IMG/VR virus record: IMGVR_UViG_3300015371_000086
Span: 1-40,771 of that record
Length of the DNA stretch: 40,771 nt
Direction: 5' to 3' (one strand)
From: a virus
Part shown: in pieces, positions 1-40,771 of the stretch
How positions within the stretch are numbered: the stretch's first letter is position 1
Layout: each line of letters begins with the position of its first letter
Notes under the pieces: generated by a model
What the model was told of the DNA's origin: nothing
Seen by the model: only the letters and a program-made list of their open reading frames with translations
Database searches by the model: none
Program-made: the position numbers and the translations under genes

Positions 1-12
1 GGGATTTCCAAC
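1..12. repeat. 12-bp direct terminal repeat, left copy
   Basis: GGGATTTCCAAC is repeated exactly at the right end (40760-40771). It shows that the two ends of the window join, either as an assembly overlap of a circular map or as a filled-in cohesive end. The HNH-to-TerS gene order across the junction supports this. Confidence 0.85.
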
Positions 13-57
13 CAAGCGGCGATTTTTCAGAAAAATTTTTGAAGGGCGGTGAAGCTT

Positions 58-411
58 TTGGCAACTAAACTTGAAATTGAAACAAAACAGAACATGCAGG
101 CGCTTGGAGTTTATCAAAGTGAATTTGATGTAGCAATTTCGATATATGCAGGGCTTGTTGAACAATATCAGCAGCTTGAAAGGGATTTTAAAAAATCCAA
201 GTTCACTGTTGTTGAAAATACCGGATACAGTGACAACAAAAAAAGAAATCCTTTGGTTGCTTCAATGGAATCTTTAAGAAAAGATATTCTTCAATATAGC
301 AACGCTTTAGGATTGACACCGGCAGGATTGAAAAAGATTAAAGAAAAAGCCGGTGAACCTAAAAAGAAGCAATCAAAGCTTGAAATGGCGCTGAATAACT
401 TTGGAATTTAA
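58..411 (+). CDS. terS: Terminase small subunit, P27 family
   Basis: This is the DNA-recognition subunit of the packaging motor. The 117-residue protein has the P27-type signature: a central segment NPLVASMESLRKDI followed by LGLTPAGLKKI and a basic tail (GEPKKKQSK). I chose the TTG start at 58 because AAGGGCGGTGA sits just upstream, as in the portal gene's AAGGAGGTGA; a GTG at 49 lies inside that ribosome binding site and would add three residues. The end overlaps terL by 11 bases. Across the circle junction the preceding gene is HNH, the classical HNH-TerS-TerL packaging order of cos phages. Confidence 0.88.
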   Translation: MATKLEIETKQNMQALGVYQSEFDVAISIYAGLVEQYQQLERDFKKSKFTVVENTGYSDNKKRNPLVASMESLRKDILQYSNALGLTPAGLKKIKEKAGEPKKKQSKLEMALNNFGI

Positions 412-2128
412 AAATCTTGAAACAGTTAAAAGCTATGCAAAAGCTGTTGTTGATGGCAGCAAGGTTGCTTGCAAAGAATTAATTCAAGCAGCCCAACGAT
501 TTCTTGATGATTTAGAAGATGAACGCTATGAACTAAGGGCAAAGGATGCAGAATTTTGTATTGGCATTATTGAAAAAACCTTTGTTCATATTAAAGGAAC
601 AGCAAAAGGACAACCATATATTCTTGAAGATTGGCAGCGGTTCATTGTTTACAATGTCGCTGCTATTTATTTGAAAGGAACTAATGAAAGAAAATATAAA
701 GAAGCTTTCATTTTCCTGCCAAGAAAGAACAGCAAAACATTTTTTGCTTCAGCTTTGGCTTGGGCGCTTTCACTTTTGGAAAGAAACTATTTCAGCGTGT
801 TGTATATTGTGGCAACCAAACTTGACAGGGCGCTTGAAGGATTCAACAACATTCTTGAAAATCTTGAAATGATGGGCGAAAAGGCAAACTTCAGAGTGCT
901 TGACAACAACAGTGAACATTCAATTAACAGAAGCTTTTATGATGCTGATGGAAGAAAAACCGGAGCAATGAAAATTCAAGCTTTAGCTTCAGATGCAAAA
1001 AAGGCAGACGGATTGAATGCAAATATTTTCATCTTGGATGAAATACACGCTTATAAAAATGCCAATGAATACTTTGTTTACAAACAAGCCCAAAAAGCTT
1101 ATGTGAACAAGCTGCTGATTGGAATCACAACAGCCGGCAGCAATATGAACAGCTTTTGTTATCAGCGGTTAAATTATTGCCAAAAGGTTTTGAACAAAGA
1201 AGTTGAAGATGAACAGTATTTTATTTTCATAACAAAAGCAGACAATCCGGATGATTACACGAATCCAATTGAACATGAAAAAGCGAATCCAAATTACAAT
1301 GTCACAATTCGTGCTGCTGATATTATGGCAGATGCAATGCAGGCACAAAATGACCCTTCAGCCCGTGATGAATTTTTAAATAAATCATTGAACATTTACA
1401 CCAACACAATGAGCAGTTATTTCAACATGGCTGAAGTTCAAATAAGTGATGAAGCAGCACACAAGGACCTTGAAGCAAAACTTGGGCAGCCGGTAACACT
1501 GGAAGCATTGGCAAAGCTGCCGGTTCAATGGTTTGGCGGTGCCGATTTATCCAAAATGTTTGACTTGACCGGCGCTTGTATTTATGGGCGCTATGAAGAA
1601 ATTGATATATCAATCACACACGGCTTCATTCCGGTAACACAAGCAAAAGCAAAAGCGGAAGAAGATAATATTCCGTTCTTTTGGTGGGAAGAACAAGGTT
1701 GGTTGACCATGACCAACAGCGAACTTGTGGACTATGAAGAAGTAGTGAAATGGTTTAAGCGAATGAAAGAAATGGGATTCAAAATAAAAGCTGTTGCTTT
1801 TGATAAATATAACAGCCGTGATTTTGTTCGGAGCATGGAGCGGCAGAAATTCAAAATGGAAGAAGCAGGGCAGCAGTTTTGGAAGAAATCTGAAGCTTTC
1901 AGGGAGATAGAGCGCAAAATAAAAGCAAAGCAGTTCACCTATATGCAATCAAAAGCTTTTGAATATTGTATTTCCAATGTCAAAGCAAATGAAGATGCTG
2001 AAGAACGTGTTCGCTTTGAAAAAGTTGGTGACAACTTCCGGATTGACTTATTCGATGCAACGGTTGTTGCCGTGAAACAAGCGATTATTGCAAGAGATAA
2101 AAAGACCAAGCTAAACACTTGGTTGTAA
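401..2128 (+). CDS. terL: Terminase large subunit (Terminase_1 type)
   Basis: This is the ATP-driven packaging motor with a C-terminal headful or cos nuclease. The 575-residue protein shows a degenerate Walker A in LPRKNSKTFF (about residues 106-115) and a Walker B in NIFILDEIHA (about 207-216). Downstream are GADLSKMFDLTG and AFDKYNSRDFV, which fit the acidic residues of the RNase H-like nuclease. The protein opens with TTG at 401, overlapping the terS end; no strong ribosome binding site is visible, so translational coupling is likely. Length and neighbours are normal for HK97-like phages. Confidence 0.93.
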   Translation: MEFKNLETVKSYAKAVVDGSKVACKELIQAAQRFLDDLEDERYELRAKDAEFCIGIIEKTFVHIKGTAKGQPYILEDWQRFIVYNVAAIYLKGTNERKYKEAFIFLPRKNSKTFFASALAWALSLLERNYFSVLYIVATKLDRALEGFNNILENLEMMGEKANFRVLDNNSEHSINRSFYDADGRKTGAMKIQALASDAKKADGLNANIFILDEIHAYKNANEYFVYKQAQKAYVNKLLIGITTAGSNMNSFCYQRLNYCQKVLNKEVEDEQYFIFITKADNPDDYTNPIEHEKANPNYNVTIRAADIMADAMQAQNDPSARDEFLNKSLNIYTNTMSSYFNMAEVQISDEAAHKDLEAKLGQPVTLEALAKLPVQWFGGADLSKMFDLTGACIYGRYEEIDISITHGFIPVTQAKAKAEEDNIPFFWWEEQGWLTMTNSELVDYEEVVKWFKRMKEMGFKIKAVAFDKYNSRDFVRSMERQKFKMEEAGQQFWKKSEAFREIERKIKAKQFTYMQSKAFEYCISNVKANEDAEERVRFEKVGDNFRIDLFDATVVAVKQAIIARDKKTKLNTWL

Positions 2129-2140
2129 GGAGGTGAAAGC

Positions 2141-3397
2141 GTGGGCTTATTCTCAAAGAAATCACGGCTGCTTAAAAAGCGCCAATATGACCCTGTGCAA
2201 GTTTGGCTTTCAGGAACCGGAAACGATGAAATTATTTTGCCTGCCGGATTCACACCGGTAACAAAAAATGAAGAAGTAAGAAAATGTATTCACAAAATTG
2301 CCGATTTGGTCAGCAGCATGACAATAATGTTGATGCAAAACGGTGAAACCGGTGATAAGCGTTTAAAAAATGCACTTTCAAAGAAAATAGATGTTTATCC
2401 TAATCACCATATGATAAGGAAGAATTTTATTTATAGGATTGTCAGCGATATGATAACCAACGGCAACAGTGTTGTTTTGCCGGTTGTTAAAAATGGGCTG
2501 CTTGACAATCTAATTATTTGGGAAGCAAGACAGTGTTCTTTTAGGGGTGACGATGAAACTTATGAAATTCAATATAAGCTTCAGACCTTCAACCCTGATG
2601 AAGTGCTTCATTTTGTTTTAATTCCTGATGATGAATTTTGTTTTAAAGGTGTGGGCTTTATTCCGGTTGTCAAAGATGCAATTGCAAATATTGTTCAAGC
2701 CAATGCAACCAAGACAGGATTTTTACAAAGTAAATGGAGACCTTCTTTAATTATCAAAGTCGAATCTGATGCAGAAGGAATGCAGATAAAAGAAGAACGT
2801 GAAAAAATCCTAAATTCTTATGTTGGTGATACTGAAGCCGGTGAACCGTGGATTGTTCCGGCAAGTGAAATTGATGTAACAGAAGTGAAACCTTTAAGCC
2901 TTCAAGATTTAGCAATTCAAGACGGTTTGCAGCTTGACAAAAAAGCGGTTGCTGCTGCCTTTGGTGTTCCGGCTTATATGTTAGGAGTTGGGACCTTCAG
3001 CAAGGATGAATATAACAACTTTATCAGCAGCGTGATAATGCCAATAGCAAAAGTGATTGAACAAGAATTAAGTAAAAAAATCACTTATGCCCCTGATTGG
3101 TATTTCAAATTTAATCCTAAAACACTTTATCAATATGACCTTGCAGAACTAACAACACATGTGAAAGAAATGGTGAATGCAGGCATGGTGAACCGGAATG
3201 AAGGAAGGAATTATTTTGACCTTTCACCGGTTGAAGGGCTAGATGAATTTGTTGTTTTAGAAAATTATATTCCGCTTGACCAAGTGGGCAATCAAAACAA
3301 ACTAAACAATCCGGCACCGGCGGACAATACACCGCCGCCGAATAATGAAGGAGGTGATACCAACAATGCACAACCGAACAGCGGAAGCCAAGCGTGA
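2141..3397 (+). CDS. Portal protein, HK97 family
   Basis: It forms the dodecameric ring at the capsid vertex through which DNA enters and leaves. The 418-residue sequence has the Phage_portal layout: an N-terminal basic stretch, NEEVRKCIHKIADLVSSM early, MITNGNSVV in the wing region, and the conserved AAAFGVPAYMLG with NNFISSVIMP near residues 280-305. The GTG start follows a perfect AAGGAGGTGA site. The last about 35 residues are Pro/Asn-rich and low complexity, and this end overlaps the protease start by 32 bases. Confidence 0.93.
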   Translation: MGLFSKKSRLLKKRQYDPVQVWLSGTGNDEIILPAGFTPVTKNEEVRKCIHKIADLVSSMTIMLMQNGETGDKRLKNALSKKIDVYPNHHMIRKNFIYRIVSDMITNGNSVVLPVVKNGLLDNLIIWEARQCSFRGDDETYEIQYKLQTFNPDEVLHFVLIPDDEFCFKGVGFIPVVKDAIANIVQANATKTGFLQSKWRPSLIIKVESDAEGMQIKEEREKILNSYVGDTEAGEPWIVPASEIDVTEVKPLSLQDLAIQDGLQLDKKAVAAAFGVPAYMLGVGTFSKDEYNNFISSVIMPIAKVIEQELSKKITYAPDWYFKFNPKTLYQYDLAELTTHVKEMVNAGMVNRNEGRNYFDLSPVEGLDEFVVLENYIPLDQVGNQNKLNNPAPADNTPPPNNEGGDTNNAQPNSGSQA

Positions 3398-3956
3398 TTT
3401 CAGAACAAAATTTGAAGTAACTAGGCAAGCCGAAAACACTAATGATTTTGTCATAGAAGGCTATTTTGCTTTATATGAACAAGAAACTGAATTAATGGAT
3501 GGTATTTATGAAATCATTACTAAGGGAGCCTTTGACAATACTTTAAATAATGATATCAGAGCGCTTTGGAATCATAACACACAATTTGTTTTAGGCAGGA
3601 ACAAAAGCGGAACACTAGAAATGAAGCTTGATGATAAAGGACTTTATGCAACAGTTAGAATGCCTAAAACCCAATATGCTGCTGATTTATATGAATTAGT
3701 GCAGCGTGGAGATGTGGACCAAGCAAGCTTTGGTTTTAATATATTGGCTGAAGATTTAGAGGAACTTGCAAGCGGCGGTTATAGATGGCGAATCAATCAG
3801 ATTGATTTGCACGAAATTTCTGTTGTCACTTTTCCTGCATACGAAAATACTTCAGTTCAAGCAAGAGCAAAACAAGTTGAGCAGCTTCAACAAAGAAAGC
3901 TTGACACCAAAAAACAAGAACTTTCAAAACGATTGGAGAGATTTAAAACATGTTAA
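3366..3956 (+). CDS. HK97 family prohead (capsid maturation) protease
   Basis: This serine protease removes the scaffold-like delta domain of the major capsid protein during head maturation. The family motifs are visible: IEGYFALYE near the start, ALWNHN with the catalytic His, and VDQASFGF with the catalytic Ser, then HEISVVTFPAYENT. I place the start at ATG 3366 because GGAGGTGATACC lies directly upstream; the earlier in-frame ATG at 3345 is part of that ribosome binding site. The tail is a charged coiled coil (residues about 165-197), and the stop overlaps the capsid gene by 7 bases. Confidence 0.93.
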   Translation: MHNRTAEAKRDFRTKFEVTRQAENTNDFVIEGYFALYEQETELMDGIYEIITKGAFDNTLNNDIRALWNHNTQFVLGRNKSGTLEMKLDDKGLYATVRMPKTQYAADLYELVQRGDVDQASFGFNILAEDLEELASGGYRWRINQIDLHEISVVTFPAYENTSVQARAKQVEQLQQRKLDTKKQELSKRLERFKTC

Positions 3957-5215
3957 AGCAATTGAAGATTCAAAAGGCTTTAGAACTTAAGCGCCAAAAG
4001 CTGAAGGAACTTGAAACAAAAGCTGCTGATATTTTAAAGCGCAGCGAAAATGCACAGGCTGCTTTGGCTGAAGCTGCAAATGAAGAAGATTTGAATTTGC
4101 TTGAAACTGAAATTCAAGATATTGAAAAAGAGCAAACAGATTTAGACAATGAAAAGAAAACTGTTGAACAAGAAATTGCAGACCTTGAAACAGAACTTGA
4201 AGATGTAAATGAACGTGCAAGCAAAGCAGCAAAAGAAATTCAGACAAGAGAAAAAGGAGCCAAAACAATGAAAGATATTAACCGCCTTGAAGTTAGAGAA
4301 TTATTAAAGAATGGCGAATACTACAAGCGCCAAGATGTAATTGATTTCTATGAGCAGTTTAAAAATTTACGAGCAGTAACAGGCGGCGAATTAACAATTC
4401 CTGAAGTTGTTGTAAATCGTATCATGGAAATCTTGGGTGATTATTCAACACTTTATCCTTTAGTTGACAAAATTCGTATCAAAGGAACAGCACGAATCAT
4501 AATTGACACCGACACAACACCGGCTTCTTGGGTTGAACAAAATGCTGCTTTACCGGTTGGCGATGTTGGAACACTTGCAACAATTGACTTTGACGGCTTC
4601 AAGGTTGGAAAGGTTACTTTTGTTGACAATTACTTATTACAAGATTCTGTTATCAATCTTGATACTTATATTTCACAAAAAATTGCAAGAGCAATTGCAC
4701 TTGCACTTGATATTGCTATTCTTAACGGAACAGGAGCAGCAGGCAAACAACCAACAGGAATCATTCCAACAATTCCTGCCGGCAATCAAGTAACGGTTGC
4801 AGATGGTTCACCGCTTGTTGATTTTGTCAAGCCTATTGGATTAATTGACACCGGACTTGATTCTGTTGGTGAAATTGTAGCAGTAATGAAGCGTTCAACG
4901 TATTACAACTATTTCTTGGAGTTTTCTATCAATGTTGATGGTAACGGCAATGTAGTTGGCAGATTACCAAACCTAACAAGACCGGATATTTTAGGAATCC
5001 GTGTTGTATTTAATAACAGCATGGCAGAAGATGAAGTTTTATATGGTGATTTCCAAATGTATACACTTGTTGAGCGTGAAAATATTGCTGTTGATTCTTC
5101 AGACCAAATTCGATTTGTTGAGGACCAAATGGCATTCCGTGGAAAAGGGCGCTTTGATGGAAAGCCAACAAAGGCAGAAGCTTTTGCTTTGGTTACTATC
5201 ACACCGGCACCATAA
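3950..5215 (+). CDS. Major capsid protein, HK97 fold with N-terminal delta domain
   Basis: It is the shell subunit. The first roughly 105 residues are an alpha-helical, Glu/Lys/Gln-rich coiled coil, the expected internal scaffold (delta) domain that the adjacent protease would cleave near EKGAKTMKD. The mature part has the HK97 pattern: LTIPEVVVNRIMEIL, ASWVEQNAALPVGD, then ALALDIAILNGTGAAGKQPTGI and a C-terminal FVEDQMAFRGKGRFDGKP. The start at 3950 follows GGAGAG and overlaps the protease gene. The 421-residue length is usual for precursors that carry their own scaffold. Confidence 0.94.
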   Translation: MLKQLKIQKALELKRQKLKELETKAADILKRSENAQAALAEAANEEDLNLLETEIQDIEKEQTDLDNEKKTVEQEIADLETELEDVNERASKAAKEIQTREKGAKTMKDINRLEVRELLKNGEYYKRQDVIDFYEQFKNLRAVTGGELTIPEVVVNRIMEILGDYSTLYPLVDKIRIKGTARIIIDTDTTPASWVEQNAALPVGDVGTLATIDFDGFKVGKVTFVDNYLLQDSVINLDTYISQKIARAIALALDIAILNGTGAAGKQPTGIIPTIPAGNQVTVADGSPLVDFVKPIGLIDTGLDSVGEIVAVMKRSTYYNYFLEFSINVDGNGNVVGRLPNLTRPDILGIRVVFNNSMAEDEVLYGDFQMYTLVERENIAVDSSDQIRFVEDQMAFRGKGRFDGKPTKAEAFALVTITPAP

Positions 5216-5223
5216 TAAAAAAA

Positions 5224-5403
5224 ATGGCACAAGCAATTGAATGTTTGTTGACCGATTTAAGCACCGGTGAAGAAATTAAAATTCCTTCAATTGCAAGAGC
5301 AAGAAAATATATGCTAGTTGATACCAATATTATTTATGGGCGGTTAGCAGTTCAGGAACCGTTAATAATAAATGGGTACAAGTTAGAACGAATTAAAAAA
5401 TAA
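5224..5403 (+). CDS. Small NUMOD1-like protein
   Basis: This 59-residue open frame fills the gap between capsid and the next gene, and its stop overlaps the next ATG by one base. The pattern TDLSTGEEIKIPSIARARKY followed by IIYGRL and INGYKLERI resembles the NUMOD1 DNA-binding repeat (TGE, SI.A, then GY) that normally sits behind homing-endonuclease catalytic domains. No nuclease domain accompanies it here. No clear ribosome binding site precedes the ATG, only an A-tract, so coupling to the capsid gene is presumed. It may be a leftover of a homing nuclease or an exapted structural or regulatory protein. Confidence 0.6.
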   Translation: MAQAIECLLTDLSTGEEIKIPSIARARKYMLVDTNIIYGRLAVQEPLIINGYKLERIKK

Positions 5404-5417
5404 TGGAGGTTCTGAAA

Positions 5418-5990
5418 ATGACAAATGAACAACAAAACGCTTCACAAGCTAATACGCAAAAATCAGAAGAACTTGCAAAAGCACATCAAGAAGCTGCAAA
5501 AGCGGTTGAGCCTAAAACGGTTGTCAATGGGAAAGTTGTTTCTCTTAAAGCTGCCCAAGCTGCTGAAGCTTATCATTCAGCTAATGCAACACAAACAGGT
5601 ATTCAAGAACATCATGCAAATAACACGGAAGCTGTTCAAGCCGGACAAGTAGCACAACAAGCACAATCAGCAGCTTCAAGCCAACAAATGAACCAAGCAA
5701 CAGGCGCTTCAGTTCGCCAAGCAAATGTGCAAAGCAGCCAAGCACATCTTGAAGATGCAATGAATCAAAGCGGCTATGAAGCAGGAGCGGCGCAAATGTA
5801 TAACCAAGGCAAAAGCGAATTTGCTAAAAGCATGAATGTTGCAAATGAAACAAATGCAATGGGAGCAGCACACCAAGCAAGCACAACACATATTGAACCG
5901 GAACAGCAAGCACAAGCTGCCCAAGCTGCTGCCCAAGCTGCTGCCGAATCAAAAGCAGCAAGAGCAAGAGCAAAAAAGGAAAATCAATAA
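5418..5990 (+). CDS. Ala/Gln/Asn-rich low-complexity protein of the head module
   Basis: I do not recognise a family. The 190-residue product is dominated by Ala, Gln, Asn, Ser and Glu, with almost no aromatic residues, repeated AAQAA-type tracts near the end and a basic tail (KAARARAKKENQ). The start at 5418 follows GGAGGT; an earlier ATG at 5403 overlaps that site. Its place between capsid and the gp6-like connector is where some phages encode decoration or minor head proteins. The sequence should be helical or disordered and very hydrophilic. An internal head protein, capsid decoration fibre or scaffold helper are all possible. Confidence 0.8.
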   Translation: MTNEQQNASQANTQKSEELAKAHQEAAKAVEPKTVVNGKVVSLKAAQAAEAYHSANATQTGIQEHHANNTEAVQAGQVAQQAQSAASSQQMNQATGASVRQANVQSSQAHLEDAMNQSGYEAGAAQMYNQGKSEFAKSMNVANETNAMGAAHQASTTHIEPEQQAQAAQAAAQAAAESKAARARAKKENQ

Positions 5991-7287: not shown

Positions 7288-7289
7288 AA

Positions 7290-17414: not shown

Positions 17415-17723
17415 ATGACAAACTTAGAAATTATCACTGAATATATCGAACAAAACGGAATTGATTTTGATTATGACGGCAACAACCTAAACACTTTTCA
17501 AGCTTGGAAGAAACAAGGTTATTCAGTTAAAAAAGGCGAAAAAGCTTTCATAAAAGTTGACCTTTGGACAATGAAGATGGTTGAAGAAAAAGACGAAAAA
17601 GGCAAGCCGGTTCTTGATGAAAAAACTAAAAAGCCAAAAATGAAAAAGAAGTTCTTCTTAAAAGCAGCGGCACTTTTCACAGCGGACCAAGTAGAAAAAA
17701 TCAAAAAAGGAAAGGCAGCTTAA
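17415..17723 (+). CDS. ArdC N-terminal-like ssDNA-binding domain protein
   Basis: The 102-residue protein matches the N-terminal domain of ArdC/LtrC-type proteins: TFQAWKKQGYSVKKGEKAFI, then a Lys/Glu-rich insertion, and KFFLKAAALFTADQVE. Full ArdC adds a C-terminal metallopeptidase that is absent here. In plasmids ArdC protects incoming ssDNA and blocks restriction. A single-domain form early in a phage could be an anti-restriction or ssDNA-binding protein. It is expressed alone from promoter copy 2. Confidence 0.72.
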   Translation: MTNLEIITEYIEQNGIDFDYDGNNLNTFQAWKKQGYSVKKGEKAFIKVDLWTMKMVEEKDEKGKPVLDEKTKKPKMKKKFFLKAAALFTADQVEKIKKGKAA

Positions 17724-21220: not shown

Positions 21221-21276
21221 TATAATGTATGTATAATGTTGATATATCAATGATTTGAAAGAAGGTATATCAATGG
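21221..21276 (+). promoter_or_regulatory. Integrase promoter region with palindrome and direct repeat
   Basis: Two TATAAT boxes (21221-21226 and 21232-21237) lack a good -35. A perfect palindrome TTGATATATCAA (21239-21250) follows, and TATATCAATG occurs twice (21243-21252, 21266-21275); the second copy contains the integrase start codon. The arrangement suggests a repressor or integrase-binding site controlling int. Confidence 0.5.
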
Positions 21277-22820
21277 AAAAAGTTTACGCTATGTTGTTAC
21301 GATTATCAAGGGACAAGAAAGAAGCAGATTCATTGCAGAATCACCGTGAAATTTTAGAAGCCTATGCAGCAGCACACAATCTGAAATATGAGCCAATAGA
21401 ATACATTGTTTCAGGTATGAAAGCAGATGTGCTTGATAGACCGGATATACAACAAGTTATCAATCAAATTGACAGATACAAAGGCATTTTGGTTTACGAT
21501 ATTTCACGGATTGCCCGTGATGTTGGTGTTGGTGATTACTTCAAGAAAATGTGTAAATTGAATGAACTTGAAATTGTGACACCTTATTATAGATTTGATT
21601 TTTCAGACCCTATGCAAGAAAGCATGTATGAAAATCAAATACAAATGGCTGCAACAGAAGGCAGGATGATTGCCAAGCGGCACAAAGATAATAAAATGGC
21701 AAGAGCAAGAAGGGGTGAATGGATTGCTTCAGACACCGCTTTTGGATATGCAAGGGATAAAGAAACACGGCGGCTTGTAATTGTTGAAGAAGAAGCGGAA
21801 ATAATACGGCGAATTTTTAAGCTGCACAATGAAGGCTTGGGAAGTTATAAAATAAGAGATATTTTGAACGCTGAAGGCATACCGGCACCAAGAACAGCTT
21901 TTTGGAATCTGCCAAGCATAAAACGAATTATAAAAAATGAAGTTTACAAAGGAACCGTGCTTTTTAACAATAGAAAAGAAATTATGGAAAATGGAAAGCG
22001 AAAATATAAGATAGTTGAAACAATCAGGGCTGAAAATGCACACCCAAAAATTATAGAACTAAAAGAATGGTTTGAAGCAAATACAGAACGTGTTGCAAGG
22101 GCTGAAAAGTTTGCACATTATAGAGAGAAGCCGGCAACCAAAAGCGGCACAAGTTCTTTGAAAGATTTGGTTTATTGCGGTTGTTGTCATAGAAAGCACA
22201 CAATCCTTTTAGACCATAAATGTAATACCGGATATGTTGTGAAAGTTTGTCATTATCTTAAAGATGGCAGCAAAGAAAAGTGTGGGAATGCAGGAATCCA
22301 ACTTGCAAAAATTGAAAAGAGAGTTTTTCACGATATTAAACGAGAAAAAGCAGCGCTTGAAAAATATCTGCTTTCATTGGAACAAAACGATAATAGCGAA
22401 TTGAAAGAAAAGAAGCTGAAGCGCTTGGACCAAATAAAAGAGCAGCTAAAAGATTTAGATGATAAAGACACCAATTTATTGTTGGCGATTGTTGCCGGCG
22501 GATTTACGGCTGAAAAAATTGATATGATGAAAACCATGCTTGCAACACAACGGATGCAGCTTGAAGGAGAAGAAAAGCTTGTTGAAGCTGAATTGAAAAA
22601 GCTTGAAGTGTTTGATGAAGCTGAAAATGTAAAAAAGATAATTGATAAAATGGAGCGCTTGGAGGAAATGACACCGGAACAACAAAATCAAGCCTTGAAA
22701 ACATTTATTAAAAAGATTCATTACACTAGAACAATTCCTGAAGAAATAAAAAAGCTTTCAACAAGAAATCCTTTAAGAAAAAATGCACCGTTCAAGCTTA
22801 AGATTGAATATATTAGATAG
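21273..22820 (+). CDS. int: Large serine recombinase (integrase)
   Basis: This site-specific recombinase would integrate and excise the phage. The 515 residues start with the resolvase domain: YAMLLRLSRDKKEADSLQNH carries the catalytic Ser12, and YDISRIARDVG and GRMIAKRHKDNKMARARRGEW follow. The recombinase domain contains GYARDKETRRLVIVEEEAEI and IKNEVYKGTVLFNNR. A zinc ribbon (VYCGCC...C...C, about 295-340) precedes a long coiled coil (about 350-460), as in TP901-1 and Tn4451-type enzymes. I chose ATG 21273 behind GAAGG. No second integrase is seen. Confidence 0.93.
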   Translation: MEKVYAMLLRLSRDKKEADSLQNHREILEAYAAAHNLKYEPIEYIVSGMKADVLDRPDIQQVINQIDRYKGILVYDISRIARDVGVGDYFKKMCKLNELEIVTPYYRFDFSDPMQESMYENQIQMAATEGRMIAKRHKDNKMARARRGEWIASDTAFGYARDKETRRLVIVEEEAEIIRRIFKLHNEGLGSYKIRDILNAEGIPAPRTAFWNLPSIKRIIKNEVYKGTVLFNNRKEIMENGKRKYKIVETIRAENAHPKIIELKEWFEANTERVARAEKFAHYREKPATKSGTSSLKDLVYCGCCHRKHTILLDHKCNTGYVVKVCHYLKDGSKEKCGNAGIQLAKIEKRVFHDIKREKAALEKYLLSLEQNDNSELKEKKLKRLDQIKEQLKDLDDKDTNLLLAIVAGGFTAEKIDMMKTMLATQRMQLEGEEKLVEAELKKLEVFDEAENVKKIIDKMERLEEMTPEQQNQALKTFIKKIHYTRTIPEEIKKLSTRNPLRKNAPFKLKIEYIR

Positions 22821-27576: not shown

Positions 27577-29298
27577 ATGGAAGCAGCAGCGGTGATTCAG
27601 CAGGACCAAGAAAATTTGTTGTTTTATGATATAGAGGTTTTTAAATATAACAGCTTTGTTGTGTTTAAGGATATTAATAAAAAAGTGGTTCGGATTTTCA
27701 ACAACACTGAAGGCTTTGTTGGTTTAGCGGATTTCATAAAAGGAAAGGTTCTTGTTGGCTACAACAACTATTGGTATGACGATAAAATTCTTACATACAT
27801 GATAGAACTTAAGCCGCAACATTTAATAAAGCAGCTTAATGATAGAATCATTTCCGGCGAAAATGTCAGCTATATAAACCGGCTTGATATTGTTTCACTT
27901 GACTGTTTTCAGCAAATAGATGTAAGCCGCCCCAGTTTAAAAAAGTGTCAGGGGAACATGGGGAAAGCAATTGTTGAATCAAGTGTTGATTTTTCGATTG
28001 ACCGACCTTTGACACCTGAAGAATTGAAGGAATCACTTTTTTATTGTGGTTACGATGTGGACACAACCATTGACATATTCATAAAACGAATAAAGTCTTA
28101 TTTTCAGCCAAAACAATCACTTCTTGAAATGCTTGGGAATCCAAAAGCTGCACGATGGAACACAACAAGCATTTCAGCCGCTTTACTTTTAGAAAAGCCC
28201 CTTGACCGGTGGGACAAGGTTAAAAACATTCCGCCGGAAATGTGGGAAATGGTTCCTGAAGCTGTTCAAGATATGTGGAGAGAAAAAAGCGAATCCTACC
28301 AATTTAAATCAAAATTGAATCAAGTGGAAATTGAAGCTTTTGATAATGTGATTCAGTTCGGTTTTGGAGGATTGCACGGCGCACACAAACGGATAAAAAA
28401 AGCAAAAAATGTGAAGCTGCTTGATGTTACAAGTATGTATCCAAATATTATTTTGCTGCTTAATGTGCTTGGAGCGGCAAGCGGTAAATATAAAGAAATC
28501 CTTGAAAAGCGAATTGCAGCGAAAAAAGCCAATGCAATTTTGGCTGAAGCCTTAAAGCTTATTTTGAATAGTGTTTATGGAAATTTGGGCAACAGATATT
28601 CAATGTTGTTCAATCAAAAGGCGCTGCTTTCAGTTTGTATTTATGGGCAGATTTCCTTATATGCACTTTGTCAAATGATTTCACCCTATTGCACAATTTT
28701 GAACATAAATACTGATGGTGTTGCTTTCATTCCGGAGCGTGACGGATGGCAAGCAGCCTATCTTGAATGGCAAAAAATTTTCAATCTTAATTTGGAAGAA
28801 AAGAATTTTGATGTGCTTGTTCAAAAAGATGTGAACAATTATATTGCTGTGAAGGGTGACAGCTATATTTGCAAAGGCGGCGATGTGAACCGCTTTGAAA
28901 AGGATGAATTTTTCAAAAATAATAATGCAAGAATTTTGGATTTAGCTTTAGTCAATAAATTGATTCACGATATTGATATTGAAGATACTTTTGAAGCTAA
29001 TCTTAAAAATCCGCATCTATTCCAATACATTTTGAGAGCCGGCGGAACCTATCAAGGCACATGCCTTGAATCAGGTGAATTGCTTCAAACAAAAGTGAAT
29101 AGGGTGTTTGCTTCAAATGAAGAAGGCTTTTGTCTGTTTAAAAAGCGGTGGGACAATGGGCTTGTAAGATTTGCCGATGCACCAACTAGTATGTTTTTAC
29201 ACAATGGGGATTGCAGCACAATTGAAAACTTTGAGGAAAAATTAGATTTAAAACACTATTACAACATTGTAAAGAAACGAATGGAAAGGTGGATTTAA
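27577..29298 (+). CDS. Family B DNA polymerase with 3'-5' exonuclease motifs
   Basis: The 573-residue replicative polymerase has all expected motifs: ExoI FYDIEVF (D18, E20), ExoII GYNNYWYDDK (61-70), ExoIII FYCGYD (155-160), motif A LLDVTSMYPN (D283), motif B ALKLILNSVYGNLGN (K327, N331, G335) and motif C NINTDG (D380). Motif C has Asn where DTD has its first Asp, while the second, metal-binding Asp remains, as in some phage enzymes. It is short for family B and has no large insert between motifs A and B. It is paired with the PrimPol-helicase downstream. Confidence 0.9.
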   Translation: MEAAAVIQQDQENLLFYDIEVFKYNSFVVFKDINKKVVRIFNNTEGFVGLADFIKGKVLVGYNNYWYDDKILTYMIELKPQHLIKQLNDRIISGENVSYINRLDIVSLDCFQQIDVSRPSLKKCQGNMGKAIVESSVDFSIDRPLTPEELKESLFYCGYDVDTTIDIFIKRIKSYFQPKQSLLEMLGNPKAARWNTTSISAALLLEKPLDRWDKVKNIPPEMWEMVPEAVQDMWREKSESYQFKSKLNQVEIEAFDNVIQFGFGGLHGAHKRIKKAKNVKLLDVTSMYPNIILLLNVLGAASGKYKEILEKRIAAKKANAILAEALKLILNSVYGNLGNRYSMLFNQKALLSVCIYGQISLYALCQMISPYCTILNINTDGVAFIPERDGWQAAYLEWQKIFNLNLEEKNFDVLVQKDVNNYIAVKGDSYICKGGDVNRFEKDEFFKNNNARILDLALVNKLIHDIDIEDTFEANLKNPHLFQYILRAGGTYQGTCLESGELLQTKVNRVFASNEEGFCLFKKRWDNGLVRFADAPTSMFLHNGDCSTIENFEEKLDLKHYYNIVKKRMERWI

Positions 29299-29304
29299 AT
29301 TTGA

Positions 29305-31134
29305 ATGACCGAGTATATAGAGTTTCAAGAAGGCAAAAAATTTCCTTCCAAAAATGCAGATAGAGCAAAAACCCCTGAAGCCTTCAAAGATGCCGGCGCT
29401 TTGTTGGAAGAAAAAGATTTGGTGATTGATATTGATGTGCTGCCGATTCCAACGATTAAAAAATTGATTCAGTATTTTAATATCAAGACACAAATTGTTT
29501 GGACCGATTCAGGCGCACATTTTTATTATAGGAAGCCGGAAACCTTCAAAGGGAACAAGGCAATTTGCCCCTTGGGTTTTGAAGTGGAGTACAAGCACCA
29601 AAAGAACACCCCAAACGGCTTGACAATCAAGCGTGACGGAAGAATGAGAGATATTGAAAATGAAGGAATCCGTGAAGATTTGCCGGATTTCTTCAAACAC
29701 AAAAGAGGATTGAAACCGCTGCTTGGACTTGAAGAACACGATGGGCGGAATCAGGCGCTTTTTGGGCATAGAATGAGGATTCATGAACTAGGACAATGGA
29801 AGCACATTTTGCGCTTTATAAACAATCATATTTTTGCAACACCGCTTGAAGAAAAAGAGTTTCAAGAGGTTGCAAGGGATGGTGTAAAGCCAAAAGCCGA
29901 AAAGGACAATCAGCCGGAAATTGCAGCTTATTTAAAAGAAAAATATAAAATTGTTTCTTATCTTGGAAAGATATATTGGTTCATTGACAAGCAATTTATT
30001 TCTGATGAAGAAATAATAAACCGGACCATTGTTGAAGAAGTGCCGGATATGAAAACGAATTTTTATAAAGAAATCAAAAGTCAATTAGAATATAGGGCTG
30101 ATTTGGTGCCGGCTGATAAAACTTTTGCAATCAAGCTGCAAAACGGAATCTTGAAAAACGGCAGATTCTTTGAACTTGATTATCAGGATTTCACACCCTT
30201 TTCAATTGATATTCCTTATGACCCAAAAGCAGCGCCGGTTCAAGTTGTGGATGATTATCTTGATTTCTTAAGTGAAAATGATGAATCTTACAAATTGCGG
30301 CTGCTTGAAACGATTGCACACCCTTTGATTGTGAATAGGGATTTCAAAAGATTGTTAGGAAAGATTTTTATTTTTGTGGGCGGCGGTGGAAATGGGAAAG
30401 GTACACTTTTGCAGATTATGAACAAAATTTTGGGTGACAAAAATTGTTCTGCCTTATCAATAAAACAAATGGCTGATGAAAGATATTTTCCGGCTATGTT
30501 TGGGAAGCTTGCAAACTTGGGTGATGATATTGAAGATGAATTTATTTCAAAAGAGCAAGTCAAAATGCTTAAGAATATCAGCACTTGTGACAAAGTTTCA
30601 ATGCGCCGAATGTTTGAAAATGCAAAAGATGTGCAGCTTACATGCAGCTTGATTTTCACAAGCAACCATATTTTGAAGGCAAGGGAAAAAGGGGAATCTT
30701 GGAAGCGCCGTGTTGATTGGGTGCCTATGTATCCAACACCGGCAAAGAAGGATGCACGGCTGATTGAAAAATTGACAGGACCGGAAGCGCTGAAATATTG
30801 GATGAAGCTTTTGGTTGATGCTTACAAAAGACTTCACAAAAATGAAGCTTTCACGGAATGTGAAAAGGTAAGGGCATTCAATGAAGCCTATCATGTTATG
30901 AATAATAATGTGAATGAATTTTTACATGATATGATTCCGGAAGATTTCATTGGCAAGCAAAAACGTGAAGCATATCGAGAATATAAAGCATGGTGTGAGC
31001 AAGAAGAAGAACAACATCTTGGACCGGAAAAGTTTCATGAAGAATTAACAGCAAAATTTAATTTGGTACTCAAAAAACAACACATTGAGAAAAAAGGTAA
31101 GCGAACAACCCAAGATTCCTATCAATTTTTATGA
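29305..31134 (+). CDS. PrimPol-SF3 helicase (D5-like primase/helicase)
   Basis: This 609-residue protein combines priming and unwinding. The N-terminal archaeo-eukaryotic primase part shows DLVIDIDVL (DxD 42-44) and SGAHFYYR (69-76), then EHDGRNQALFGH (144-155). The C-terminal SF3 helicase has FVGGGGNGKGTLL (Walker A, about 358-370), LANLGDDIED (Walker B, 402-411) and LIFTSNHIL (sensor, 449-457). It resembles the P4-type primase-helicases of phages and plasmids. AAAGGTGG lies 12 bases before ATG. The origin region follows immediately. Confidence 0.92.
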   Translation: MTEYIEFQEGKKFPSKNADRAKTPEAFKDAGALLEEKDLVIDIDVLPIPTIKKLIQYFNIKTQIVWTDSGAHFYYRKPETFKGNKAICPLGFEVEYKHQKNTPNGLTIKRDGRMRDIENEGIREDLPDFFKHKRGLKPLLGLEEHDGRNQALFGHRMRIHELGQWKHILRFINNHIFATPLEEKEFQEVARDGVKPKAEKDNQPEIAAYLKEKYKIVSYLGKIYWFIDKQFISDEEIINRTIVEEVPDMKTNFYKEIKSQLEYRADLVPADKTFAIKLQNGILKNGRFFELDYQDFTPFSIDIPYDPKAAPVQVVDDYLDFLSENDESYKLRLLETIAHPLIVNRDFKRLLGKIFIFVGGGGNGKGTLLQIMNKILGDKNCSALSIKQMADERYFPAMFGKLANLGDDIEDEFISKEQVKMLKNISTCDKVSMRRMFENAKDVQLTCSLIFTSNHILKAREKGESWKRRVDWVPMYPTPAKKDARLIEKLTGPEALKYWMKLLVDAYKRLHKNEAFTECEKVRAFNEAYHVMNNNVNEFLHDMIPEDFIGKQKREAYREYKAWCEQEEEQHLGPEKFHEELTAKFNLVLKKQHIEKKGKRTTQDSYQFL

Positions 31135-31137
31135 TTT

Positions 31138-34788: not shown

Positions 34789-34877
34789 TCGAATAGCACA
34801 ATTTTAACAATGTTATCCAATGACACTTTTAATACAGAAACAATGCCTTATTAAAAACAGATTTATTGATAATAATG

Positions 34878-34883: not shown

Positions 34884-34978
34884 GTCCAACTTTTCCATAG
34901 TAACAAAAACCCCTTCAAGGGCATTCAAGATTTTTCTTGGATGCTTATTTTTTTGCAGAAAATGGAAGGATGATTTTT

Positions 34979-35149: not shown

Positions 35150-35288
35150 TTCTTGGTTTGGAAAGTATTGGATTTTAAATGAAACTTGGACAAAGGCATT
35201 TTTTATTTCTCATATTTTTGGTTGGACAATTGCATGGTTGCAAACAATTTGGCTTGTTGTCGAAATTAGAAAGAAGAAAAAATTATGA
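35127..35288 (+). CDS. Small membrane protein
   Basis: The 53-residue product is bracketed by Lys-rich ends (MAKKKKGD and IRKKKKL) with one Trp-rich span (FFISHIFGWTIAWLQTIWLV). GGGAG lies upstream, and it overlaps the next gene by ATGA. Confidence 0.62.
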   Translation: MAKKKKGDSWFGKYWILNETWTKAFFISHIFGWTIAWLQTIWLVVEIRKKKKL

Positions 35289-35398
35289 TGAATTGGAAAG
35301 ATTCATTTTTTCATGCTTTATATATAACAATTTTAGTTTATTTTGCTCACACCGTTTCACAATTAATTGATGCAATAGTTAGGATGATTGTTAAATGA
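35285..35398 (+). CDS. Small membrane peptide
   Basis: The 37-residue product (MMNWKDSFFHALYITILVYF, then an amphipathic helix) probably has one span. It is coupled to both neighbours by ATGA overlaps. Confidence 0.58.
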   Translation: MMNWKDSFFHALYITILVYFAHTVSQLIDAIVRMIVK

Positions 35399-35583
35399 AA
35401 GAATGGTTATTTTTTCAACTTGAACATTTCAATGTATTTATGATTTTGGTTATGGTGATTTTTGTTAGTGCTTTGAGCCGTGCCAACTTACAAAAGCAAT
35501 TGAAAGCACAAAATGAAGAAGTGTACAAGGAATTTGAAGAAATCAAAGATGAAATAAGAGGAATAGGCGGAAGGTTCCGATGA
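35395..35583 (+). CDS. Membrane-anchored coiled-coil protein
   Basis: The 62-residue product has one span (FNVFMILVMVIFVSALS) and a charged coiled coil (LQKQLKAQNEEVYKEFEEIK). It overlaps both neighbours by ATGA. The layout resembles small lysis or membrane-scaffold proteins of phages. Confidence 0.65.
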   Translation: MKEWLFFQLEHFNVFMILVMVIFVSALSRANLQKQLKAQNEEVYKEFEEIKDEIRGIGGRFR

Positions 35584-35822
35584 ATGAGCAAATAACATTT
35601 TCTTTGATAGAAATTTTTATAAGCTTGATTGTTGAAACAATCATTTTGGGCGGTGTTTTTACTTGGGTAAGCAACAAAACAGCCAAGCAAAATGAACAGG
35701 CACTTAAAAGCGAACTTTCAACAATTGAAAGCCAAAATAAGCTGATATTTCAACAACTTGAAGCAGCGATAAAAGCAAGCCGTGATGATGTGATAAGTGA
35801 AATCAAGGAAGTGATGAAATGA
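35580..35822 (+). CDS. Membrane-anchored coiled-coil protein
   Basis: The 80-residue product has a span near the start ([19 protein letters not shown]) and a coiled-coil tail ([20 protein letters not shown]). The XhlA-like topology is reversed. It overlaps the previous and next genes by ATGA and is the last of this membrane-gene chain before the fibre. Confidence 0.65.
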
Positions 35823-37900
35823 CCATAAAAAGCTTTGATGTGAAGCTTGATATTGAAGAAATTTTGTATTCTTCATCAATGCTGCTGTTTAGTGTATCTC
35901 AAAATGATTTTAATGATATTCAGCTAAACTTGATTATTGAACAAGATGGAAAGCCGCTTGATTTGACCGGCACAACTATTGAATTGGCGGTTAAAAAGCC
36001 AAGCGGTTTAACAGTTTATCAAAACGCTGATATTACAGAAGCGGCAGCAGGACTTGCAGCCGCTTTTTTATCTGTTCAAGCCTATGCTGAATATGGTGTT
36101 TGCACGGCTGAAGTTTATATAAGGACTGATAATGATGTTGCAGTAACAACACCGTTTTATTTTGGTGTTCGTGAAGCAATTATGAATGATGAAACACTTT
36201 TAAGCAGCGATGATTTCACAGCATTGCAGGAATTATTTTTTGCTTATGATAAAAAGCCGGTTTTGGTTGACGGTGTTCCAAACTTTGTGCCGGAATACAT
36301 AGGACAAACAGCTTTTGACACAACCGGAAAAAGGGGCTTCATTGCAAATGCTTTGGCGGTTGACGGTTGGCAGATTCTTGGAGCAGGAGAAGGCGGCACA
36401 GGGCTTGTTTATTGGAATGATATTTTAAATAAACCAACAGATGCAGAACTAATTGGACCACAAGGACCGGCAGGACCAACAGGACCGGCAGGACCAATTG
36501 GACCGGCAGGAGCAAACGGACCACAAGGACCGGCAGGACCAACAGGACCGGCAGGAGCAACAGGACCACAAGGACCAAAAGGAGATACCGGAGCAACCGG
36601 ACCGGCAGGAGCAACAGGACCACAAGGACCGGCAGGACCAAAAGGCGATACCGGAGATATTGGACCGCAAGGACCGGCAGGAATCCAAGGACCAAAAGGA
36701 GATACCGGAGCAACAGGGGCAACAGGACCGGCAGGACCACAAGGACCGATTGGACCGGAAGGACCGATTGGACCACAAGGACCGATTGGACCAAAAGGCA
36801 ACGATGGCACCGGAGTAACAATTTTAGGCAGCTATGCAACGGAAGCTGAATTAAATGCTGCACACCCTTCAGGCAATACAAATGGTGATGGCTACATTGT
36901 TGCCGGTGATTTATTTGTTTGGAATGGCACCGCCTTTGAAAATGTGGGCAGGATTCAAGGACCACAAGGCGATATTGGACCGATAGGACCGACAGGACCA
37001 CAAGGACCACAAGGAGATATTGGACCGACAGGACCGGCAGGACCAACAGGAGCAACCGGCGCTGAAGGACCACAAGGACCGGCAGGACCAAAAGGAGATA
37101 CCGGCGACACCGGACCAATTGGACCACAAGGACCACAAGGAGATATTGGACCAACCGGACCACAAGGACCACAAGGTGATATTGGATTGACCGGACCACA
37201 AGGACCACAAGGAGACACCGGACCGGCAGGACCACAAGGCGATATTGGACCACAAGGACCAATTGGATTGACCGGACCACAAGGACCAAAAGGCGATACC
37301 GGAGATATTGGACCGGCAGGACCGGCAGGACCACAAGGTGATATTGGACCAACAGGACCACAAGGACCAAAAGGCGATACCGGAGATATTGGACCACAAG
37401 GACCAAAAGGAGATACCGGCGATACCGGACCACAAGGACCAATTGGATTGACCGGACCGGCAGGACCACAAGGACCAAAAGGAGATACCGGAGCAACTGG
37501 ACCACAAGGACCACAAGGACCACAAGGACCAACAGGCACCGTTTCTTATGATTCACCGGCTTTCACAGGGACACCAACAGCACCAACACCGGCAGGAACA
37601 GACAATTCAACCAAAATTGCAACAACAGCTTTTGTCCAAGGACAAAACTATTTAAAAACTATTCCTGTTATGACCGGCGCTGTTATTGGCGGCGCTATGG
37701 TGGGCAATGGGCTTGGTCAAACAAACAATTATTTATATGTAAAAACCGGCAGCGGTTTGGGAATTGCCGGTGATAATTCTGTACAAGTTCAAACAACAAA
37801 TACAACACCGGTTCCTTTGAAATTTTGGACCGGAACACAATCTGCTTATGATGCTATTGGAACAAAAGATGCAAATACAATTTATTTAATAACGGGGTGA
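35819..37900 (+). CDS. Baseplate upper protein (BppU-like) with collagen-like fibre
   Basis: The 693-residue fibre protein has a BppU-type N-terminal domain (about residues 1-125; [20 protein letters not shown]), a linker, then two collagen-like Gly-X-Y blocks (about 210-330 and 378-570; [13 protein letters not shown] patterns). A small globular spacer separates them ([20 protein letters not shown], 331-377). The C-terminal tail ([20 protein letters not shown]) is typical of tail fibre tips. It probably trimerises and projects the binding tip. The start overlaps the upstream gene by ATGA. Confidence 0.9.
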
Positions 37901-37904
37901 GAAT

Positions 37905-40166
37905 ATGGCAACAACAGGGGTTTTGCCTTATAGGACCTTCAAAGACGATGTTTTAGCAAACACCGGATTTTTTGAGTGCAGCAGCACGGATGTAACAGTT
38001 CAACAAGGCACTTCAAGTGGAAATCATGACGGTGCCGGAATGTCAATGGGAAATTTACAGTACAACTTTGGACCGGCAAACAGATTAAATGAATTATGGA
38101 ATTACATGCTTACAAATTTTGAACAAGATTGTATTGATGCTTTTGGAACACACACAACGGAATATCAAACATGGAAAACGGCTGTTTTGTCAACCGTGCA
38201 GCAAGATAAAATCAATTTTGGTGCTTCAATAACAGACCCAAACAACTCACATGCAGTTATTGAACCTTATAAATCTGCTTTTGCAGCTTTAGGAAATAAA
38301 CAAAGTCATATTGACAAATATAAAGCGATGGCAGACCAATATTATTTTCCTGCACCTGAAAATGCTTTTCAGACACTAAGCTGCAAAAGCCGGCTTGCCT
38401 ATGCTTCATTATTTGACACTTATATAAATAAAGGGCGCTATTATCCAATAAATCTGCTTTGTGCTGATTTTGACAGAATAGATGCAGATACAACAATTGA
38501 TGAAACCGAAAAAGAGCGGCAAAAGATATATCAAATAAATTATCGTGGAAATTATGATAATGCAGTAAAGCCAACACCCAACACGGATGGGACCATTGAC
38601 CAAGTGACCTTTTGGGATGGTTCAACAGCAGGAGCAGAAAACGGCAGAAGGGGTTGTATGGCGAATCAAACCGGAAATTATTATGGTTTGACTTATGACC
38701 CTGATGTGCAATTTGATATGAGCCAAGAACCGGCGCTTGATTCAAAAGCAGCAACAACCGGCTTGAAACTTGGAACAACAGATATAAAAGCACTTTATCA
38801 AGGAACAGCAAAAATTGCCGATGTTTATTTTGGAACAACGCTTTTAGGCAGCGGAGCGCAACAAGTAACTTCTTCAGCGGTTCCAAAAACACAATTCAGA
38901 ACCAATGCCGGAAGTTATGCAGGCATAGGCGGCGCAACAAGCGTGAATTTAACAGCAGGGCAACCGCTTTGGATTGATTGCCAAGAAAATCCTTCAGGCA
39001 CATTAGTTGGCTGCCGGACTTATTACACAACCGATGGCAGTACACCAACAACCAATTCAACACTATATACGGATGCTTTGACTTTTAACAATTCAGTAAC
39101 TTTGAAAACTTTGACCGTTTCAACAAGCGGTGTTGCTGAAGCTGTTAAAACTTTGACCGTAAATGTTGCAACAGCGCCAACAACTACAATCAGCCCAAGC
39201 GCAACGGTTCAAAATTCTATTCCAATTACAGTGACTTTGACCACAAGCGAACAAGGCGCAACAATTTATTATCAAATTGGAACAGATGCAACAACTTATA
39301 CTTACACCGGACCATTTCAAGTGAATCAGGATACAACCGGAGTTTTAGGCACTCAAATAACCGTGAAATATTGGGCTGTTGGAGCAACCGCAACAGAATC
39401 AACCAAAACAATTACTTATGATACTTCAGGAGCGGCAACCGGTGTTCCTGTTGTGACAGCAACCGCCGGAAATGGGCAAGTTTCTTTATCTTGGACAGCA
39501 GCAACAAACACAACTTCTTACACTGTTTACAGAAGTACAACAGCCGGACAATTAGGCACTTGGATTGGAAGCAGCCAATATTTAAGTAAAACAACAACAA
39601 GTATGATTGATACCGGAGTTGTTGCCGGAACAACTTATTATTATCAAGTTCGTGCCGGAAATTATGGCGGCGGAAACTATTCAACACAAGTTTCAGCAAC
39701 ACCAACAGCAGCACCAACCAAGCCAACATATAGATACTTGAAAATTCAAGGTTACGGAACCGCAACAGATACAACAACACGGATTATTGAATTTGAAGCA
39801 TATAGCGGCGGCACTAATATTATGAGAAATGCAGGAACAACAATTCTTGCAAATGATAGTTTGAACAACAGCGGAAATGTGGGGCAAATAAAAGACGGTG
39901 TGAAAACAAATGCTTCAAATAGTTATCCGCTTTGGTGGACACCAGTACCAAACGCAAATGTTGTTATTGATTTAGCAAGCTCTTTTGCAATTGATTCAAT
40001 GAATTATATAAGCTATTCAGTTTCAGGGGACCAACGTACAAATAAATTTAAGATATTAGGCAGCAATACAAACAATGGGACTGATTGGGTAAGTGTTTGG
40101 GATAATTCAGATGGGCATCTTGGGGCGCAACCTTTATTGCCAAATGGCTATTCAGTAACATTCTAG
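37905..40166 (+). CDS. Tail-associated lysin/adhesin with beta-sandwich modules
   Basis: The 753-residue virion protein has a lysozyme-like N-terminal domain (about 1-240) with GFFECSSTDV (Glu24) and GNHDGAGMSMGNLQYNFGPA, the pattern of phage and spore wall-lytic domains. Two chitobiase-type beta modules follow (about 310-500; YYTTDGSTPTTNSTLYTDAL), then a fibronectin type III domain (508-600) and a C-terminal F5/8-like carbohydrate-binding domain (605-753; YLKIQGYGTATDTTTRIIEF). It would open the wall and bind host sugars at infection. The start follows GGGGTGAGAAT. Confidence 0.82.
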   Translation: MATTGVLPYRTFKDDVLANTGFFECSSTDVTVQQGTSSGNHDGAGMSMGNLQYNFGPANRLNELWNYMLTNFEQDCIDAFGTHTTEYQTWKTAVLSTVQQDKINFGASITDPNNSHAVIEPYKSAFAALGNKQSHIDKYKAMADQYYFPAPENAFQTLSCKSRLAYASLFDTYINKGRYYPINLLCADFDRIDADTTIDETEKERQKIYQINYRGNYDNAVKPTPNTDGTIDQVTFWDGSTAGAENGRRGCMANQTGNYYGLTYDPDVQFDMSQEPALDSKAATTGLKLGTTDIKALYQGTAKIADVYFGTTLLGSGAQQVTSSAVPKTQFRTNAGSYAGIGGATSVNLTAGQPLWIDCQENPSGTLVGCRTYYTTDGSTPTTNSTLYTDALTFNNSVTLKTLTVSTSGVAEAVKTLTVNVATAPTTTISPSATVQNSIPITVTLTTSEQGATIYYQIGTDATTYTYTGPFQVNQDTTGVLGTQITVKYWAVGATATESTKTITYDTSGAATGVPVVTATAGNGQVSLSWTAATNTTSYTVYRSTTAGQLGTWIGSSQYLSKTTTSMIDTGVVAGTTYYYQVRAGNYGGGNYSTQVSATPTAAPTKPTYRYLKIQGYGTATDTTTRIIEFEAYSGGTNIMRNAGTTILANDSLNNSGNVGQIKDGVKTNASNSYPLWWTPVPNANVVIDLASSFAIDSMNYISYSVSGDQRTNKFKILGSNTNNGTDWVSVWDNSDGHLGAQPLLPNGYSVTF

Positions 40167-40177
40167 GAGCATAACAA

Positions 40178-40417
40178 ATGAATCAGATAGTTATTATTAA
40201 CAGGATATTAAGAGAACGAGCAAGGCAAGATAAGCTTCACACATGGGATGCAGATACAAACAAGATGGCAGTATTGGCAGAAGAACTTGGTGAGGTTGCA
40301 GCAGCAATGCAAGGGCAGGGGATATTGCAGGATGAATTGGTGCAGCTTGCAGCCGTGGCAATAAGGTGGTTGGAATATGAGCAATCCATTCTACAAAAGC
40401 AAAGCATGGCGGAGTAA
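40178..40417 (+). CDS. MazG-like nucleotide pyrophosphohydrolase
   Basis: The 79-residue protein carries the MazG-type acidic motif in LAEELGEVAAAMQ and DELVQLAAVAIRWLE, the EExxE plus ExxD-like metal-binding helices. Such enzymes hydrolyse NTPs, or ppGpp in some hosts, to adjust nucleotide pools in infection. It is short and lies between the lysin and HNH. GGAGCATAAC precedes ATG. Confidence 0.8.
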   Translation: MNQIVIINRILRERARQDKLHTWDADTNKMAVLAEELGEVAAAMQGQGILQDELVQLAAVAIRWLEYEQSILQKQSMAE

Positions 40418-40625
40418 AAGAGAATACATTCTTAAACGTGATGGCTATCAATGCCAAGAGTGCAGGAAGTATGGCAAGAACACTGAAGCAAAGATTGTTC
40501 ACCATGTTATAGAACTTGAAGATGATTGGACACAACGATTGAAGAACAATAACTTGGTAAGTGTTTGTGCTGCTTGTCATAATAAGATTCACCCTGAAAA
40601 AGGTGGACATAAAATAAAATATTAA
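40377..40625 (+). CDS. HNH endonuclease (packaging)
   Basis: The 82-residue protein has the HNH fold: a basic N-terminus starting MSNPFYKSKAWRSKR, CQEC, HHVIELED with the catalytic His, N at NNNLVSVC, and CAACHNKIHPEKG. It is typical of the HNH proteins that work with terminase on cos cleavage. The start overlaps the MazG gene by 41 bases behind AAGGTGG. Across the circle junction it precedes TerS, the classical order. Confidence 0.93.
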   Translation: MSNPFYKSKAWRSKREYILKRDGYQCQECRKYGKNTEAKIVHHVIELEDDWTQRLKNNNLVSVCAACHNKIHPEKGGHKIKY

Positions 40626-40771
40626 AAAATATTTGCTGAAAATAAATTTTTTAAAAAATTCCTTTTGAAAAATTTTCAAAAAATATTTTGGAAAAAAATT
40701 GGAAACCCCCCGCCTTTTTTAAATTTGTCAGAGAACTTGGGAGAACCGGCGCCAAGGGAGGGATTTCCAAC
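40626..40771. other. Candidate cos region between HNH and terS
   Basis: The stretch has A+T-rich blocks, then TTGGAAACCCCCC (40699-40711) and GGGAGGGATTTCCAA (40756-40770), which are imperfect inverted repeats (about 12 of 14 matches). Between them CTTGG/CCAAG and GGCGCC form smaller symmetric sites. It lies where cos is found in HNH-TerS phages. No gene is visible here. Confidence 0.65.
40760..40771. repeat. 12-bp direct terminal repeat, right copy
   Basis: GGGATTTCCAAC is identical to bases 1-12. The copy lies at the end of the candidate cos inverted repeat. Confidence 0.85.

Follow-up and report, generated by a model that had tools for sequence, protein, structure and literature searches.

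Clade-specific clearing of short DNA words in a group of temperate-looking siphovirus-like phages

What would leave a phage genome of more than 40 kb without a single copy of two tetranucleotides? The window (the whole stretch of DNA analysed here, one virus record of 40,771 bases) has a G+C content of 38%, and its predicted genes lie essentially all on the + strand. A sequence-only reading had reported that GATC and GGCC appear to be entirely missing, and had proposed that this reflects selection against two restriction specificities in the hosts and could help identify the host range. We compared word counts in the window and in its relatives with several null models. The features on which this comparison draws are as follows.

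401..2128, + strand: terminase large subunit (TerL; phrog_9, E 1e-114), a shared marker for comparing clade-specific clearing
2141..5215, + strand: portal, head maturation protease and major capsid protein (MCP) (phrog_12, phrog_80, phrog_10), the rest of the shared region used for per-clade counts
17415..17723, + strand: small protein of 102 aa with an ArdC N-terminal-like domain (PF08401, E 1.4e-7)
21255..22820, + strand: large serine recombinase (integrase; phrog_95, E 3.4e-79; 39.6% to phi3T/SPbeta-group recombinases)
27577..31134, + strand: family B DNA polymerase and primase/helicase of the replication module (53% to Listeria phage LM 4-11-1; phrog_864, E 2.4e-139)
35819..37900, + strand: collagen-like tail fibre with Gly-Pro repeats (phrog_819)
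40377..40625, + strand: HNH endonuclease adjoining the cos-like end (PF01844, E 4.9e-9)
1-12 and 40760..40771, + strand: terminal 12-base repeat GGGATTTCCAAC (from the sequence)

The head genes run in the order TerS-like, TerL, portal, protease and MCP, and the genome also carries a siphovirus-like tail module, an amidase, the large serine recombinase, the family B polymerase, a primase, a subtilase, the collagen-like fibre and the HNH nuclease. With its integrase, its ordered TerL, portal, protease and MCP genes and its tail module, the window has the gene content of a temperate HK97-fold siphovirus of Bacillota; the large serine recombinase is what indicates a temperate phage. By its domain match, the small ArdC-like protein is a possible anti-restriction gene, ArdC being an anti-restriction factor. 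The GGGATTTCCAAC ends look like a cos-type virion end, since the relative L013 spans the junction with a single copy of the repeat and many relatives' contigs begin at the homologous position. A cos end whose 12-base 5' overhang had been filled in would account for this arrangement, the overhang type being a guess. No match was found in a near-identity search of a phage collection with window bases 1-25000; an Rfam search returned nothing, and PADLOC gave weak HNH matches only.

Both GATC and GGCC were absent from the 40,771 bases, against dinucleotide-shuffle means of 74.1 (sd 8.0) and 87.4 (sd 9.3), respectively. The rough expectations first proposed for them, ~130 and ~50, agree with mononucleotide values of 135 and 51, and CCGG and GCGC, described earlier as common, occur 240 and 89 times. 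The clearing is wider than had been described, however. CGCG was also absent (32-42 expected; shuffle mean 41.2), CCAG/CTGG was reduced to 13 copies (8 CCAG and 5 CTGG) where about 141-186 were expected, and CCCG/CGGG to 6 (4 CCCG and 2 CGGG) where about 85-116 were expected, so that each of the latter two had lost more than 90% of its sites on both strands. Five longer words (GAATTC, CTGCAG, CAGCTG, GWGCWC and CTCTTC) were missing altogether, against roughly 9-23 expected for each, and CTNAG occurred 9 times against 77 expected.

A low-GC, purine-rich phage might acquire such a pattern through its codon usage, the amino-acid content of its proteins or a dinucleotide bias. Strong biases of this kind are present (GAA 815 vs GAG 85; low TA and CG), and the window is likewise depleted in many 5- and 6-base words, which may reflect some wider word-use bias. 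The bans also shift the first-order Markov expectations. A synonymous-codon shuffle that kept codon usage expected 88 GATC, 80 GGCC and 30 CGCG. The strictest null kept proteins, codon usage and codon-junction dinucleotides, and left out the collagen-like fibre because its Gly-Pro repeats hold so many of the GGWCC and CCGG sites (70 of 112 and 46 of 240, respectively); it still expected 68.5 GATC, 51.0 GGCC and 32 CGCG. Under this null exactly five tetranucleotides reached no more than about 0.064 of expectation, and the lowest of the others stood at 0.29. The zeros held under every null, as in the count against expectation that the sequence-only reading had suggested, and they extended to the 4.7 kb of noncoding DNA, which contained neither GATC nor GGCC (7.3 and 10.2 expected). 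GATC, GGCC, CGCG, CCAG and CCCG each showed an observed/expected ratio below 0.1 with an expectation above 15, our criterion for site elimination. The depletion in the window thus goes beyond codon usage, protein content and dinucleotides, and an origin in composition or codon bias, rejected on these shuffle nulls, is extremely unlikely. The proposal of selection is partly borne out and gives the best account of the data; its restriction to two specificities does not hold, as far more words are involved, including the asymmetric CCAG and CCCG.

The clearing is accompanied by a synonymous escape in codon choice. Aspartate before C was encoded by GAC in 47 of 47 cases and never by GAT, whereas elsewhere in the window GAT was used 392 times and GAC 80 (83% GAT); glycine before C was never encoded by GGC, a codon found 209 times elsewhere. 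In the relative L004, where GATC is permitted and GACC scarce, aspartate before C was encoded by GAT 19 times and by GAC not once. Codon choice under the bans, with codons pushed onto the remaining words, thus produces much of the impression that words are either cleared or enriched. CCGG, for example, stood 2.7-fold above the strict null in the window. When the five banned words were barred from the shuffles, its expectation rose from 69 to 99 (183 observed) and that of GGWCC from 16 to 23 (39 observed), so the enrichment of CCGG is partly due to the banning of neighbouring words. Displacement accounts for only part of the CCGG excess, the remainder reflecting other bans or an unexplained preference. 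Enrichment of uncleared words was accordingly set aside as a separate signal, being partly displacement and, for GGWCC, also a product of the collagen-like fibre.

Scans of viral contigs added 34 members to the phage group, nearly all of them metagenomic and, judging by their IMG sample numbers, presumably drawn chiefly from soil and rhizosphere. Most show 81-100% TerL identity or 67-100% MCP identity, after which there is a gap down to about 64%; L046, L050 and L052 were admitted on the strength of PolB or tape-measure matches. The relatives are mostly fragments, 4-31 kb in length, and the rare-word zeros of the short ones are individually weak; the conclusions about the group rest on its long members and on repeats within clades.

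Every long member has several cleared words, and the sets differ among clades. GATC is absent from some clades but enriched 2-5 times elsewhere in the group, and CCGG, GCGC, CGCG, GGCC, AGCT, GCWGC and GGWCC switch in a similar manner. In the clade of the window (L002, L003, L023, L046), GATC and CGCG are cleared, GGCC is cleared or present once, CCAG and CCCG are nearly cleared, and CCGG and GGWCC are enriched. L004 and L005 contain 90 GATC sites against 36 expected, with no GGCC, CGCG, CCGG or GGWCC, and L007 and L081 lack GATC, CGCG and CCGG, have almost no GCAG and are enriched in GCGC. GGCC, CCGG and GCGC are all missing from L080, L015, L006, L024, L082, L085 and L086, in which AGCT is absent or nearly so. 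L077 and L078 carry GATC at about five times expectation together with enriched CGCG and no GGCC, and L142 contains GGCC (18 vs 10 expected) with no GATC, GCGC or CGCG. Asymmetric 4-base words (CCAG, CCCG, GCAG and GAGC) are cleared in most clades, and in both orientations even though the predicted genes lie essentially all on one strand; the clearing thus acts at the level of double-stranded DNA.

These differences are found between phages with similar proteins. Mean column identity was 90% in a TerL alignment of 10 members and 83% in the MCP alignment, and clades with terminases more than 80% identical bear different banned sets. Within the TerL-to-MCP region, scored against codon shuffles, observed/expected counts in the window and in L004 were 0/14 and 46/23 for GATC, 27/16 and 0/5 for CCGG, and 28/13 and 0/10 for GCWGC. 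The fact that zero sets differ between relatives whose proteins and G+C are similar also speaks against a compositional origin, and the clade-by-clade switching of the cleared set argues for lineage-specific selection over composition or codon bias. Because the records are metagenome assemblies, we also considered a library or assembly artefact such as restriction-digested input or masking. We rejected this explanation, which is barely credible: the same IMG metagenome series includes a member with 118 GATC sites (L078, 3300015374), a separate metagenome again yielded near-identical genomes (L046, L003), and reading frames are intact and the proteins conserved.

On a tree of TerL and MCP, the sets were common within clades and changed between them, with minimum numbers of changes of 7 for CCGG, 4 each for GATC, GCGC and CCCG, and 3 for CGCG; these counts take in six outgroup rows, and some inner branches are weakly supported. 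When a tetranucleotide was called cleared at an expectation of at least 12 and an observed/expected ratio of at most 0.10, each of the 11 group contigs that reach 9 kb, some of them close kin and hence not independent cases, had 3-6 cleared tetranucleotides. The rule was also applied to 81 non-redundant comparators, likewise no shorter than 9 kb and most of them belonging to these TerL or MCP families with about 50-64% identity: no tetranucleotide was cleared in 66 of them, one in 13 and two in 2. Bans of its own were seen in a 41 kb relative recognised through PolB (53%; L048, L209, L210), with GAGC at 3/104, CGCG at 1/18 and GCGC at 3/20 over 40 kb.

The longer relatives encode serine recombinases of diverse families. 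Those of L203 (9208-10647), L204 (15064-16707) and L202 (1-1541) are only 24-28% identical to that of the window (21255-22820), which suggests from sequence that integration modules have been replaced among otherwise related phages.

Together, these observations make it very probable that the group has undergone repeated Type II restriction-site elimination, mostly by synonymous change and with a lineage-specific target set, in temperate, cos-ended, siphovirus-like phages of what are presumably spore-forming Bacillales. The palindromes cleared across the group (GATC, GGCC, CGCG, CCGG, GCGC and AGCT) match known Type II specificities. Host Type II restriction would be the simplest agent, as the words include classic palindromes, the effect is double-stranded and holds in both orientations, it extends to noncoding DNA, and it is lineage-specific. 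The restriction enzymes of the current hosts would select away essentially every copy of their recognition sequences in each lineage, mostly through synonymous change. When a lineage moved to hosts with other enzymes, or its hosts exchanged theirs, the old ban would lapse and new ones would begin, and unbanned words would become over-represented as banned synonyms were pushed onto them.

Words might also be eroded without nuclease selection, by deamination of 5-methylcytosine in a methylated prophage. The members of the group do appear temperate, and clades F and G combine very low CpG with high TG/CA. However, GATC is typically N6-methylated, a modification that is not strongly mutagenic; TGCG/CGCA, into which C-to-T change would turn CGCG, is itself depleted in the window (65 vs 162), and erosion would be expected to leave a residue rather than zero. 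We consider this explanation very unlikely. Self-methylation was also rejected as the reason why some words persist: no methyltransferase gene was found among the window proteins scanned, a set that left out some small ORFs, and a search of the relatives with PF00145 gave a match in 1 of 15 related records. This match is a short, odd homologue in clade F (L202:2145-2768), a C5-methyltransferase-like protein of 207 aa with SPVC in place of the expected PPCQ motif.

Some features fit less easily with orthodox restriction. The serine recombinases make the group temperate-looking, whereas temperate phages reportedly eliminate sites less often (PMC6286503), and CCAG, CCCG, GCAG and GAGC are asymmetric, whereas published elimination concerns orthodox Type II sites almost solely. 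An unknown sequence-specific DNA immunity other than classical Type II restriction, for example one reading short asymmetric words, might impose part of the bans, notably those on these four words. Their clearing in both orientations in most clades is compatible with such a system, as are L014 and L015, in which GCCAGT or TCCAGT accounts for 28 of the 29 residual CCAG sites and the banned element is accordingly longer or composite. Yet there are asymmetric Type IIS enzymes, and such words could also be the sum of several overlapping Type II sites; we regard a separate immunity as unlikely, though far from negligible. A broader and rather unlikely proposal is that the group serves as a natural archive of the restriction enzymes in a Bacillales lineage that has yet to be sequenced and is extremely rich in restriction systems. 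In this archive the four asymmetric words would reveal undescribed restriction or DNA-immunity specificities and sets of about 5-15 bans would be swapped at host change.

The nearest named relatives of the window, module by module, are Bacillales phages, and we infer a spore-forming Bacillales host. Noted beside these module relatives, two other clades (F and G) also carry genes for a LysM-CAP secreted protein and a YetF-like (DUF421) membrane protein (L202 5104-6741; L203 4475-6080). Host searches with the terminase, in genome contigs and in about 700 Bacillota genomes, with the subtilase and with the YetF-like protein yielded no more than matches of about 50-56%, or none. These searches found neither a host genome nor a cognate restriction enzyme (closest genome terminase about 55%), and no close integrated prophage was found in the genome contigs. 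As a guide to host range, then, the signature is informative, as first suggested, but not yet decodable.

Accounts of restriction-site avoidance usually treat one site at a time. In this group, about a dozen clades whose proteins are similar have different near-complete bans, some of them within the same metagenome series, and each genome resembles a record of the immune enzymes that its lineage has met. It now becomes directly testable how fast a phage clears or regains a site, what number of enzymes a single lineage can evade simultaneously, and whether the immune enzymes of a host can be named backwards from the cleared set of an uncultured phage.

A limited literature search found no comparable phage group, which is weak evidence of novelty. 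The closest parallel is the survey of Rusinov et al. 2018 (PMC6286503), in which elimination was seen in 7.5% of cases, more rarely in temperate phages, and almost solely at orthodox Type II sites. The present phages resemble those cases in the complete loss of such sites from a dsDNA phage genome. They differ in that all long members are affected, with 3-6 cleared tetranucleotides each, in that asymmetric words are included, and in that the set varies between close clades; as a temperate-looking group, they also depart from the reported trend, in which full elimination is seldom attained by temperate phages. Their named relatives differ as well. The GBSV1-like Geobacillus phages (Svunavirus, DQ340064) share the head module of the window (MCP core 68%, TerL 52%) and its gene order (HNH, TerS-like, TerL, portal, protease, MCP), but GBSV1 has no cleared tetranucleotide (observed/expected 170/167 for GATC and 73/81 for GGCC). 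The amidase is 54% identical to that of Caldibacillus phage CBP1, and the replication module resembles those of Listeria phage LM 4-11-1 and Staphylococcus phage phiST9-C (PolB 53% and 49% identical), of which phiST9-C has no cleared tetranucleotide and LM 4-11-1 only GGCC (1/16). Site elimination is thus already known; what is new is its degree, its turnover among close temperate relatives and its extension to asymmetric motifs.
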